A stretch of 64,000 nt of DNA, taken from Cyanobacteria bacterium FACHB-63 (GTDB lineage Bacteria; Cyanobacteriota; Cyanobacteriia; Leptolyngbyales; Leptolyngbyaceae). Under the pieces are notes generated by a model. That model did not search any database, had not been told where the DNA came from, and worked only from the letters and a program-made list of their open reading frames with translations. The position numbers were made by a program, and so were the translations under genes. This document shows positions 4,783-7,911 of this stretch, piece by piece (position 1 is the first letter of the stretch; every line of letters starts with the position of its first letter). The DNA lies in the NCBI GenBank assembly GCA_014695255.1, contig JACJNX010000046.1:124001-188000 (forward strand), written 5' to 3'.

Positions 4783-4896
4783 CTAAATACTCTTTACCTG
4801 ACAAAATCCCATTATTTCAGAGGATAGAGGGCGGATAAACGTCTGGTCTCTATCGTAGAGAGGGTGATGTAAAACAATTGCTCAATTCAAAGAATT

Positions 4897-4934
4897 ATCT
4901 ACGTTAGCGGAGCGAAATATAGCTCAACGTAGAT
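4897..4934 (+). promoter_or_regulatory. Leader stem-loop upstream of the PRC-barrel gene
   Basis: Arms ATCTACGTT (4897-4905) and AACGTAGAT (4926-4934) are perfect complements. The stem continues with GAGC/GCTC (4910-4913 with 4922-4925) across a 4-base bulge, closing an 8-base loop. It lies 27 bases before the start codon and is not followed by a T-run, so a regulatory leader structure or protein-binding dyad is more likely than a terminator. Confidence 0.45.
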
Positions 4935-4961: not shown

Positions 4962-7346
4962 ATGCCGCTTTATAAAATCAGGGATTTTGATCCAGAGTAT
5001 CAACGGTATTTTGACGATCGGGACATTCTAAAGTTTGATGTTTACAGTGGTCATGAGAAGGTTGGCACTGTTAACGATTTGCTGGTCGATGAAAGTGGTC
5101 GGTTCCGCTACCTAGTCATTAACATTGGTAAGCGGGTATTGGTACCTATTAGTCGATCGCGCATTGATGATGCAGCAGGTCGTGTATATATCGATGGACT
5201 CACCCATGATCAGGTACAACGATTGCCAGAGTACACCGGGGAGCCAGTCGATTATGACTACGAAGAACGAGTTAGAAGTATTTATCGCCCGTTGACCTAT
5301 CGCGACGCTGCTACTGCACCTGTAGCCTACGATCGCAAAAGCTACCACTACGATCGCGATCCCGCTCTATATCATCTGAATGATCGAGATCACTCATCTC
5401 TAAGACGCTCCGAAGCACGACTGATGGCGAGTAAACCGATTGTCGGAAAACATCGAAGAGCGATCGGAGTGTTTCCTAACCGCCAAGCAGCAGAGCAGGC
5501 ACTGCATGAACTGAGAGATTCTGGGTTCCCAATGGGTCGCGTCTCTGTAGTCACTCGTGATGCTAATCAACCTCATGAAATTGCAGGTGCTGATGTGCAT
5601 CATCGAATTGGCAATAAAGCCGAGGAAGTAGCAGCGATTGGTGCCGTTTCTGGCGGTGCATTAGGTGGATTAACGGGCTTCCTGGTTGGTCTTGGAACTC
5701 TGGCAATTCCGGGTGTCGGTCCAATTATGTTAGCAGGCGCAACTGCGACTACACTCGCAACCACACTAGCAGGAGGCGCGATCGGTATTGTATCCGGTGG
5801 TCTGTTGGGCGCACTCGTTGGTCTAGGGATTCCCGAAGAGCGTGCTCGGATCTATGAAGAGCGCATTGTTCGGGGTGGCTATCTAGTCATAGTTGATGGC
5901 ACAGATGCAGACATTGCCAGAGCGCAGGTGATTTTGCATAATCGAGGCATTGAAGACTATGGAATCTATGACGCACCCACTGCAACTCCTGCGCCTTCCG
6001 CCTCAACCATTCACCCGTCAAGAACAACGAGTGAGAGGTTATTGGCGATCGGCTTATTCCCTCACTTAGCGGACACAGAATCCGCGATCGCTGACCTCAG
6101 AAGTATCGGGTTTCCGCTCAGCCAAATCTCGCTTGTTGCTCACAATCTGCAACGACGGGAGCGTTTTGCCGGAGTAGACGTGCGCGATCGCTTTGAAGCT
6201 GCAAGTTTGGGAATTCCGGCAGAACAATCACGCTTCTATCACGATCGTCTCCGTCGCGGTAGGTCTCTAGTGATTGTGCATGGAACAGAAGATGAACTCA
6301 ACCGTGCCACGCCAATTCTCAGCCGTCACGGGATTCAGGAGTATCGGATTTACAATCCAAACGTTGTCTACTATGAATCCCCTCTCGAAGCGCCGAGAGC
6401 ACCAAAGAGAGTTATTGCCGTACCCCTTACCTCGACTGCTAGCGAATTTCGTGGCGATCGTCCTCAGGTTGATCAGCTTCCCTATGCGGTTGGCTTCTTC
6501 CTAAATCGACGAGAAGCTGAGCAAGCGATCGCCGACTTAAGAGAAGCCGGATTGCCTTCAAGACAAATTTCGTTAGTTGCCCAGCGATTTGACCACCGTG
6601 AAGCGTTTACGGGGGTAGAGCTGCGCGATCGCTTTGATAATCGCCGCTTTGGTTTCCCTGAAGAACGAGTCCACTCCTTGAACAACCGCATTGCACAGGG
6701 ACACTATTTAGTGATTCTACGCGGAACATCCGACCAACTCCGACAGGCAGAAGCTGTTCTCAAGCGTCCTCGCATCCATGATTTTGGCATCTATGATATG
6801 CCAAGCATTGCCCATGACCGTACTCAGCCTGAGCTAACGCATCACAGGGTTGTTCCGGCTGCTGTACCTCCTACGGTTTCTACAACCTCAAGTCACAGCG
6901 GCGGAGTTGAGACTGTACGCAAACGTGCGATCGGGGTTTTCTCTCATCGTCGTGATGCCGAAGCCGCGCTTACCGCACTACGAGATGCAGGATTCCCGAT
7001 GGAACAGGTCTTTCTTACCAGTAGACAGGTAAACAACGCCAGGATTCTAGGCATTTCCGAGGAACGGGCTAGAGTTTACACCGATCGTCTTACTCAGGGC
7101 GATGAATTGATCATCATAGATGGGACTGAGGCAGAAGCTCGGCAGGCAGAATCCATTCTGCGCCATTACAACATCCAGCAATGGGGCATTTATGACACGG
7201 CTGATGTCCGTTCAATCGATCAAGTTGAGCGATCGTCTCCGCACCAGATCGCACCAGATGCAGATCTGCCTCATCCTGAACCCCGAATCGATCGTTCGCA
7301 TCCTTATCTCACGATCATTGATCGCCGAGGCGAGACGCAGCATTAA
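4962..7346 (+). CDS. PRC-barrel protein with four tandem GSP17M-like stress repeats
   Basis: The 794-aa protein starts with a PRC-barrel (about residues 1-100). Four copies of a general-stress-protein-17M-like module follow, at roughly 166-337, 361-465, 508-612 and 655-746. Each module runs from (A)IG(V/L)FxxRxxAExAxxxLRxxGFP through IPEERARxYxxRixxGxxLVIV to a final GIYD. Only the first repeat has the long Gly/Ala-rich hydrophobic segment (about 224-288), a glycine-zipper-like membrane insert; the others lack it. A ribosome site GGAGG precedes the ATG. The family is linked to stress responses, but no enzymatic role is known. The protein may be membrane-anchored through repeat 1. Confidence 0.8.
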   Translation: MPLYKIRDFDPEYQRYFDDRDILKFDVYSGHEKVGTVNDLLVDESGRFRYLVINIGKRVLVPISRSRIDDAAGRVYIDGLTHDQVQRLPEYTGEPVDYDYEERVRSIYRPLTYRDAATAPVAYDRKSYHYDRDPALYHLNDRDHSSLRRSEARLMASKPIVGKHRRAIGVFPNRQAAEQALHELRDSGFPMGRVSVVTRDANQPHEIAGADVHHRIGNKAEEVAAIGAVSGGALGGLTGFLVGLGTLAIPGVGPIMLAGATATTLATTLAGGAIGIVSGGLLGALVGLGIPEERARIYEERIVRGGYLVIVDGTDADIARAQVILHNRGIEDYGIYDAPTATPAPSASTIHPSRTTSERLLAIGLFPHLADTESAIADLRSIGFPLSQISLVAHNLQRRERFAGVDVRDRFEAASLGIPAEQSRFYHDRLRRGRSLVIVHGTEDELNRATPILSRHGIQEYRIYNPNVVYYESPLEAPRAPKRVIAVPLTSTASEFRGDRPQVDQLPYAVGFFLNRREAEQAIADLREAGLPSRQISLVAQRFDHREAFTGVELRDRFDNRRFGFPEERVHSLNNRIAQGHYLVILRGTSDQLRQAEAVLKRPRIHDFGIYDMPSIAHDRTQPELTHHRVVPAAVPPTVSTTSSHSGGVETVRKRAIGVFSHRRDAEAALTALRDAGFPMEQVFLTSRQVNNARILGISEERARVYTDRLTQGDELIIIDGTEAEARQAESILRHYNIQQWGIYDTADVRSIDQVERSSPHQIAPDADLPHPEPRIDRSHPYLTIIDRRGETQH

Positions 7347-7452: not shown

Positions 7453-7911
7453 ATGAAGAAGTTAACCAGTGTTCTCATTAGTAGCCTTTTCTTGGCAGGT
7501 GCCGTCGCTTGCAATAATGTTGCGAAGACCAGCGAGCAAGCACCTGATTCGACAAACACAAGTACGCAGCCTCCAGATGTGAATAAAGCGCAAGAAATTC
7601 ACAAGGACGGCAACAGCATCGTCCGCAGAAACCAACTCAACGCAGATATTCGCGCCCGCGAACAGCGGAGTCAGATGACAGGTAAGGATGTGAATCGACC
7701 AGACGATGATATTAAAAGTGAAGTTCGGAGTAAACTGGAGGCAAATTTACCCGCAAGTCAATTAACAGTGGATGCCAAGGATGGCAATGTGAGCATTTCG
7801 GGTACGGTTCCAACCAAACCGCAGTACCAACGAATTGCACCGTTAGCGAAAGAGATTTATGGAGTCAAAAAGATTGATGTCAAAGTTAAGGTAGCTCCAG
7901 CAAAACGCTGA
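7453..7911 (+). CDS. BON-domain lipoprotein
   Basis: The 152-aa product has a lipoprotein signal: MKK, a hydrophobic stretch, then lipobox LAGAVAC with the acylated Cys at about residue 20. A low-complexity Ser/Thr/Gln/Pro linker follows. The C-terminal 65 residues form one BON domain (DDDIKSEVRSKLEANLPASQLTVDAKDGNVSISGTV), a fold found in OsmY and other envelope proteins that is thought to bind phospholipid surfaces. It follows the stress-repeat gene in the same direction, which suggests a shared envelope-stress theme. No catalytic role is expected. Confidence 0.85.
   Translation: MKKLTSVLISSLFLAGAVACNNVAKTSEQAPDSTNTSTQPPDVNKAQEIHKDGNSIVRRNQLNADIRAREQRSQMTGKDVNRPDDDIKSEVRSKLEANLPASQLTVDAKDGNVSISGTVPTKPQYQRIAPLAKEIYGVKKIDVKVKVAPAKR

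Follow-up and report, generated by a model that had tools for sequence, protein, structure and literature searches.

A rare cyanobacterial fusion of a PRC-barrel with four GSP17M repeats, next to a conserved BON lipoprotein gene

Members of the GSP17M/YflT, PRC-DUF2382 and BON families are generally catalogued as stress proteins without a known function. We take AvaK/YsnF to be the name for proteins that join a PRC-barrel to DUF2382. A study of alkane-overproducing Nostoc punctiforme, which calls AvaK a PRC-barrel protein, reports that AvaK-type PRC proteins are up there, as is a BON protein (PMC7660261). The open-licence literature, in the portions accessible to our searches, contained no description of PRC-GSP17M fusions, of multi-repeat GSP17M proteins or of a GSP17M-BON gene pair. 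Here we analyze a locus that brings all three families together, found in a stretch of 64,000 nucleotides (the window) on contig JACJNX010000046.1 of Cyanobacteria bacterium FACHB-63 (Leptolyngbyaceae), whose genome comprises 7.2 Mb in 179 contigs. An open reading frame (ORF) at 4962-7346 encodes a PRC-barrel followed by four GSP17M-like repeats and directly precedes a BON gene. Very probably two adjacent stress-type genes have been joined here in a rare fusion, an account that covers both the fusion itself and the family of repeat proteins to which it belongs. Below, R1-R4 denote repeats 1-4 of the window protein, and L, G and C numbers denote loci, genomes and contigs of the window's own genome, respectively. 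The parts of the fused gene are as follows.

4962 to 7346, forward strand: fused gene, PRC-barrel and four GSP17M/YflT repeats, 794 amino acids (aa)
5010 to 5201, forward strand: PRC-barrel domain, residues 17-80, nearest to the N-terminal parts of PRC-DUF2382 (AvaK-type) genes
5400 to 5435, forward strand: DUF2382 remnant, its first ~12 residues (residues 147-158), with the fusion joint directly after it, from the alignment with the Pantanalinema PRC-DUF2382 protein (L130)
5454 to 5972, forward strand: repeat 1, residues 165-337, split by a Gly/Ala insert (BLASTP, half-repeat profiles and model)
5598 to 5831, forward strand: glycine-zipper insert of repeat 1, approximately residues 213-290, a putative membrane hairpin (hydropathy and GxxxGxxxG frames)
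6039 to 6353, forward strand: repeat 2, about residues 360-465, without insert
6480 to 6797, forward strand: repeat 3, residues 507-612, without insert, diverged and nearest to middle repeats
6921 to 7193, forward strand: repeat 4, about residues 654-745, without insert, the counterpart of Pantanalinema's insert-bearing last repeat
7302 to 7334, forward strand: conserved C-terminal tail motif PYLTIIDRRGE

The start, end and 794-aa length of the ORF are those given in a first-pass annotation made from the sequence alone, and the frame is intact. The domain content that it had proposed was borne out by Pfam, which matches the PRC-barrel (PF05239) at residues 17-80 with an expectation (E) value of 1.4e-10 (41.5 bits against a cut-off of 21.2) and finds four stretches of YflT (PF11181) with E 1.4e-23 (83.6 bits, cut-off 26.2); DUF2382 (PF09557) is not among the matches. 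In scans of the individual repeats, only repeat 1 exceeds the YflT cut-off of 26.2, with 41.5 bits; repeats 2-4 fall below it (22.7, 22.2 and 17.3 bits). BLASTP between the repeats gives E 4e-27 for 2 vs 3, 1e-21 for 2 vs 4 and 9e-21 for 3 vs 4, and the halves of repeat 1 match repeats 2-4 with E values of 5e-9 to 8e-16; by these alignments the four repeats are clear homologues of one another. The same comparisons, together with the half-repeat profiles used to place the repeat borders, confirm that the Gly/Ala insert is present in repeat 1 alone, where residues 213-292 hold 20 Gly and 13 Ala.

The fusion itself is rare: an in-frame PRC-barrel occurs in 2 of the 128 distinct genes with an insert-bearing repeat, namely the window's and that of a genome from another genus (G023), and is absent from both of the two such genes fetched later. 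The searches covered 58 relatives, 42 genomes of the family (a search of the taxonomic order gave the same 42) and 388 class genomes. Queried with the whole protein, at least 135 of these 388 genomes gave matches with E ≤1e-50; an unbroken match from the PRC-barrel far into the repeats was seen only in G000 and G023, a result that for the 58 relatives and the 388 class genomes applies among the matches listed. Five further candidate places, with matches that extend beyond the PRC-barrel or with weak single-repeat matches, were fetched and contain three PRC-DUF2382 genes and two single-repeat genes, none of them fused; the matches that reach slightly past the PRC-barrel in G011, G027 and G014 are PRC-DUF2382 genes. 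Viral contigs gave one weak fragment, and plasmids gave seven partial matches and zero fusions. A search of genome contigs with the single protein gave no match; the alignment-based search did find relatives. The window's own genome contains, in addition, three PRC-DUF2382 paralogues (C115, C122 and C178), a diverged single-repeat gene on C13 (33% identity, no adjoining BON gene) and two further weak matches on C13 and C169.

The G023 copy has an identical joint and 73% identity to the window protein, and it ends within repeat 1, where its contig runs into sequence with at least 40 other matches in the G023 genome (L042 1-145; 40 of 232 candidates were scored, and 17 of the 40 matches start at contig base 1). 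This dispersed sequence, which cuts the fused gene, is probably an insertion sequence. Residues 301-794 of the window protein have only weak matches in G023 (best E 4.6e-9, 40% identity). Over the fused part, the proportions of nonsynonymous and synonymous differences between the two copies are pN 0.174 and pS 0.689 (312 codons), with synonymous sites near saturation and the time before the fusion included.

The likely parents of the fusion are found side by side in two genomes of the same family, Pantanalinema sp. GBBB05 (G017/L130) and Leptolyngbya sp. FACHB-36 (G008/L132), in which a PRC-DUF2382 gene, a three-repeat GSP17M gene and a BON gene follow one another on one strand without fusion. 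Residues 147-158 of the window protein correspond in the alignment to residues 1-12 of DUF2382; beyond them the sequence is that of a GSP17M gene start. In the Pantanalinema PRC-DUF2382 protein the Pfam DUF2382 begins at the residue that matches the start of this remnant. Because the unfused PRC-DUF2382 gene adjoins the GSP17M gene and the joint sits just inside DUF2382, we infer that the intergenic gap and almost the whole of DUF2382 were deleted, which would have joined the PRC-barrel to the repeats. Other arrangements of such genes also occur. PRC-DUF2382 is divergent from a neighbouring two-repeat GSP17M gene in Nostoc and Komarekiella (L143 and L144), and in one genome of the window's genus (G007, L053) it shares its strand with a GSP17M-DUF2382 gene that lies ~3.4 kilobases (kb) further downstream.

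How unusual the repeat array is can be judged from a survey of 80 named loci, taken as the best of 501 confirmed candidates and therefore biased to close relatives, mostly Nostocales. They contain 81 GSP17M genes. With N and C for the repeat halves and z for the insert, the architectures are NzCNzC (22 genes), NzCNC (16), NzCNCNzC (12), NzC (9), NzC-DUF2382 (7), NzCNzCNzC (5), NzCNCNC (2), NzCNCNzCNzC (2), NzCC (2), and four that occur once: NzCNCNCNzC, a five-repeat chain, NzCNCNz and a fragment (z). The first repeat bears the insert in 80 of the 81 genes, the remaining one being the fragment. Chains of one to five GSP17M repeats that mix copies with and without the insert are thus common in cyanobacteria, and the proposal of an architecture not seen described is not supported in that form; only the PRC fusion and the exact pattern of one insert-bearing and three insert-less repeats are special. 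As to mixed chains, 16 of the 81 genes are pairs of one copy with and one without the insert, and Lyngbya aestuarii BL J (L164) has a genuine three-repeat chain in which only the first repeat bears it. Two apparent cases of insert loss, L137 (NzCNCNC) and L162 (NzCNCNz), were dropped as 396 and 222 of their residues, respectively, are masked. In a four-repeat protein from Westiellopsis (L139), repeats 2 and 3 have identical cores, which points to a very recent duplication or gene conversion.

Core identities between the window protein and its Pantanalinema relative are 68% for the two first repeats, 62% for the two second repeats, and 51% between window R4 and Pantanalinema R3; window R3 is nearest to the middle repeats (44% and 43% identity). 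A tree was built from 68 repeat cores of the window and 25 chosen loci with the insert removed (85 columns, unrooted, many open forks). It needs 3 insert-state changes, compared to 18.8 with shuffled labels, though the well-supported (starred) branches alone force only 1. Most of the insert-less middle repeats group together (80/85, an open fork), window R4 pairs with the insert-bearing R3 of Pantanalinema at an ultrafast bootstrap of 100 (though with an SH-like approximate likelihood ratio of 65, from 85 columns), and L164 R2, on a long branch, is a third case. Since the insert is present in first repeats and in single-repeat relatives, we interpret the changes as losses, and the tree suggests that the insert was lost once among middle repeats and later again from the last repeat. 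The present form would then have arisen when the last repeat lost its insert and an extra middle-type repeat was gained.

Window R3 stands on a long branch (0.76) and its placement is unsure. A gene with such a repeat might be a decaying relic of a fusion, without a present role, as could also be read from the G023 copy, cut by the dispersed sequence and with only weak counterparts of the later repeats. We regard this as quite improbable, since the frame of 794 codons is intact in the window, the C-terminal motif and the BON partner are kept, and pN is low relative to pS, though the synonymous sites are near saturation.

7453 to 7911, forward strand: BON-domain lipoprotein gene, 152 aa, conserved downstream partner

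This gene lies directly next to the fused gene on the same strand and matches the BON model with E 6.4e-14 (52.4 bits, cut-off 27); a lipobox-like stretch was recognized by eye at the N terminus of its product. The first-pass annotation had attached meaning to this neighbour, and the relatives bear it out. Of the 81 surveyed genes, 55 have a BON gene downstream on the same strand at no more than 1.5 kb, 24 do not, and 2 have too little sequence to be scored; the survey's genes with three or more repeats, also 24 in number, all have it. In a wider set of 106 distinct genes, which leaves out genes whose 3' end is open and genes that lack BON but have under 1.5 kb of sequence left, BON is directly downstream in 76, with a median gap of 120 bases among the 76. 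By repeat number, it follows 27 of 28 three-repeat genes, 5 of 5 with four or five repeats, 30 of the 54 two-repeat and 8 of the 11 single-repeat genes, and 6 of 8 DUF2382-tailed genes. The sole three-repeat gene without it is the first of the tandem pair in L099 (1881-6820), where two three-repeat genes (769 and 678 aa) are followed by one BON gene. Among ten additional genes, including some from the window's genus, BON lies downstream in seven (L046-L052); the BON frame of L053 overlaps beyond the set limit, and L055 and the window genome's own C13 paralogue have none. Because only 2 BON matches in the whole of the window's own genome exceed the cut-off, the adjacency is far from chance, with the qualification that related genomes are not independent. 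It suggests that the two proteins act jointly at the membrane.

Many of the genes without a downstream BON are two-repeat genes of 314-320 aa from Nostocaceae, and in five of the 24 surveyed genes that lack it (L185, L189, L195, L196 and L197) a BON gene lies just upstream of the two-repeat gene instead. L102, L104, L116, L120 and part of L146-L161 form a separate group of 298-320-aa two-repeat genes without an adjoining BON. The genes of L046-L052, from the family and genus of the window, are single-repeat GSP17M-DUF2382 genes that also precede BON.

The BON partner is further associated with the C-terminal tail of the repeat protein. A motif of the form [VILAM]-x-[VI]-[VI]-[DE]-[RHNQ]-R, searched in the last 22 residues, is present in 60 of the 90 multi-repeat genes, in 5 of the 18 with a single repeat and in none of the 10 with a DUF2382 tail. 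When N is also allowed at the acidic place, BON lies downstream of 62 of the 65 genes with the motif vs 14 of the 41 without it (Fisher p 7e-12, uncorrected for kinship).

What the repeats may look like was predicted with AlphaFold2. For repeat 1 (46 sequences), the model has a β1-α1-β2 block and an α-β3-α2-β4 block, with block means of ~85-96; for the whole protein (15 sequences), each of the four repeats shows the same elements, repeats 1 and 2 being modelled with high confidence in both their halves and repeats 3 and 4 with moderate or lower confidence, while the linkers score below 50. The PRC domain is confidently predicted with six strands at residues 26-77, and in a sequence search of solved structures this part finds reaction-centre H subunits (E 0.005). 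The best solved-structure sequence matches, designed TIM barrels with E ~1e-4, were discarded as chance βα matches. The whole-protein model has a predicted template modelling score of 0.28 and so does not fix the arrangement of the domains. Each repeat is predicted to adopt a ferredoxin/PII-like fold.

Chain D of the alternative complex III entries, which we take to be ActD, is among the structures that align with repeat 1. The structural aligner gives Z 9.1 for 6btm_D (root mean square deviation, rmsd, 2.3 Å, 84 aligned residues), 8.8 for 8k9e_D and 8.5 for 6lod_D, and the 6btm_D alignment runs across the insert of repeat 1. ActD of R. marinus is described as having a βαβ motif at each terminus, which together form one four-stranded sheet, two transmembrane helices, cytoplasmic ends of the chain, and a conserved Glu in the second helix (PMC5928083). 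The window insert has no D or E at residues 223-290 and so no counterpart of this Glu. At the sequence level, the ActD model (PF11821) finds no match in the window protein or its repeat 1, reaches 13.9 bits for L164 (cut-off 25.7), and exceeds this cut-off nowhere in 59 cyanobacterial genomes (best 24.5, G044). Of 46 insert-bearing domains scanned at E ≤1, 16 match ActD, 20 match DUF1269 and 33 match each of two glycine-zipper models, with best E values of 3e-4 to 1e-3 (ActD 9.6e-4). We take the GSP17M repeat, as modelled, to be a good structural analogue of ActD; kinship between the two is possible.

PII/GlnK proteins align at up to Z 9.8 (2j9e_B, rmsd 1.6 Å, 74 aligned residues), which could mean that the repeats are ligand-sensing domains of the PII/CutA/ACT type and the array a membrane-tethered sensor rather than a scaffold. 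The rows near Z 9 include many unrelated ferredoxin-like proteins, and this reading of the model is distinctly unlikely. SPOR, another domain with a ferredoxin-like fold, suggests a periplasmic location in which SPOR-like repeats would bind peptidoglycan beside the BON lipoprotein, since the whole window protein matches PF05036 with 24.7 bits (cut-off 21). This match spans only 26 residues (163-188, profile positions 43-69 of 76), the repeats scanned singly give none at E up to 0.1, only 5 of the 46 insert-bearing relatives have a SPOR match at E up to 1, and no N-terminal signal sequence is seen by eye at the PRC start, which together make the SPOR reading very improbable.

That leaves the insert. 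Its residues 223-290 contain no charged residue, the only polar ones being Thr and Ser, and the stretch holds six GxxxGxxxG frames. We think it rather probable that the insert spans the membrane as an anchor hairpin. Of the picture of one membrane anchor followed by three soluble copies, the part that stands is one insert followed by three repeats without it; the membrane span is a prediction. The six frames would also suit an oligomerising or channel-forming glycine zipper, several copies of which form a pore that the other repeats gate or decorate, by analogy with glzT, a glycine-zipper 2TM gene for which a channel was proposed in low-salinity Synechococcus (PMC7771541). The channel role of glzT is based there on motif, transmembrane prediction and expression (PMC7771541), and an uncharged stretch with Thr and Ser alone speaks against a pore here, which we consider unlikely.

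As a whole, the locus is on balance best explained by a rare fusion that yields a membrane-anchored stress scaffold paired with a BON lipoprotein. In such a scheme, the Gly-zipper hairpin would dip into the membrane midway through the fold of repeat 1, separating its two halves in the manner of ActD, and the PRC-barrel and all repeats would lie on the cytoplasmic side, held at the membrane by this one hairpin. One anchor with soluble domains on flexible linkers would make a stress-related scaffold, which may hold partners or its own copies at the plasma or thylakoid membrane. The BON lipoprotein, probably from the same operon, would act on the other (periplasmic) face, and the GSP17M-BON pair would be made under stress. 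Published support for this scheme is indirect, namely the joint rise of AvaK-type PRC proteins and a BON protein in the Nostoc punctiforme study (PMC7660261). The scaffold function, taken by itself, is a tentative suggestion, with somewhat less than an even chance of being right.

Several observations weigh against this explanation. The fusion is patchy: of 8 genomes in the window's genus one has it, as does one of the two in genus g17, and the other genomes of the window's genus with a fetched locus (L048, L049, L051 and L053) carry a single-repeat GSP17M-DUF2382 gene before BON instead; because of this patchiness, descent with losses or transfer is possible. The insert (local residues 53-117) has a predicted local distance difference test score below 50 in the AlphaFold2 model of repeat 1, and it is moderately hydrophobic (Kyte-Doolittle mean at most 1.79, octanol scale near zero). 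Foldseek gives a best E of 0.39, with alternative complex III chain D in rows 1 and 3, and PII and many ferredoxin-like proteins score as high as ActD in the structural alignments. In addition, the literature searched, as far as its accessible parts go, offers no expression, localisation or binding data on multi-repeat members.

The following features lie upstream of the fused gene.

4823 to 4829, forward strand: upstream element GATAGAG, at -139, with a second copy at -233
4823 to 4854, forward strand: leader hairpin 1, predicted, not conserved in three loci compared
4897 to 4934, forward strand: leader hairpin 2, predicted, not conserved in three loci compared

The leader folds better than its shuffles (z -4.43; one shuffle in 200 does as well). 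The first-pass annotation had read a leader hairpin as a sign of envelope-stress regulation; as such evidence the hairpins were set aside, since no shared structure is found upstream of the fused G023 gene or the unfused L130 and L132 loci and no Rfam family matches at E up to 1. The leader has no near copy elsewhere in its own genome (other matches E ≥2.7), and it shares with G023 only a block of 19 bases and the 26 bases that surround the start codon. Scans for sigma-70 promoters and terminators gave no excess of sites over shuffles. The element G[AG]TAGAG is found in 40 of 132 upstream regions (up to 400 bases), where mononucleotide shuffles give 5.8 and the reverse strand gives 9, and it often stands inside TCTAATGATAGAGA; GATTGATGA is present in 38 of the 132. 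It lies at -18 to -359, being at -137 in G023 and -172 in Pantanalinema. It is a possible promoter or regulator site, to be taken as a lead only, with many of the regions from related Nostocales. The envelope-stress regulation proposed for the locus is plausible.

The conserved GSP17M/BON gene pair is of wider use than the fusion, which is a rare detail. GSP17M-repeat proteins and BON lipoproteins may constitute an undescribed two-gene envelope or thylakoid system, widespread in cyanobacteria, in which a cytoplasmic ActD-like array is held by a glycine-zipper hairpin and a tail motif is linked to BON; we put this forward with reserve, as a conjecture more apt to fail than to hold. If it is true, the PRC fusion would be a 'Rosetta stone' that links AvaK-type stress proteins to the GSP17M-BON system. 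The locus and its relatives place three 'unknowns' in one genomic context, with a predicted repeat fold and topology and one testable hypothesis.

Compared with known systems, the window protein resembles ActD (PF11821) in the two half-sheets of a four-stranded sheet predicted around a hydrophobic insert, and differs from it in that ActD is a respiratory-complex subunit with a conserved Glu in its transmembrane region, whereas the window domain has neither a match to the ActD model nor an acidic residue in the insert. With AvaK-type PRC-DUF2382 proteins it has in common the PRC-barrel and the linker up to ~12 residues of DUF2382, and it has GSP17M repeats in place of the rest. The single-repeat GSP17M-DUF2382 proteins of the window's genus (L048, L049, L051 and L053) have the insert-bearing repeat and the adjacent BON gene in common with it, but have one repeat, a DUF2382 tail and no PRC-barrel. 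Multi-repeat cyanobacterial GSP17M proteins are represented by that of Pantanalinema sp. GBBB05 (L130), which has the same type of repeat, the insert in its first repeat, an insert-less middle repeat, the tail motif and the BON gene downstream; to this the window protein adds an N-terminal PRC-barrel, and it has four repeats, the last of them without an insert.

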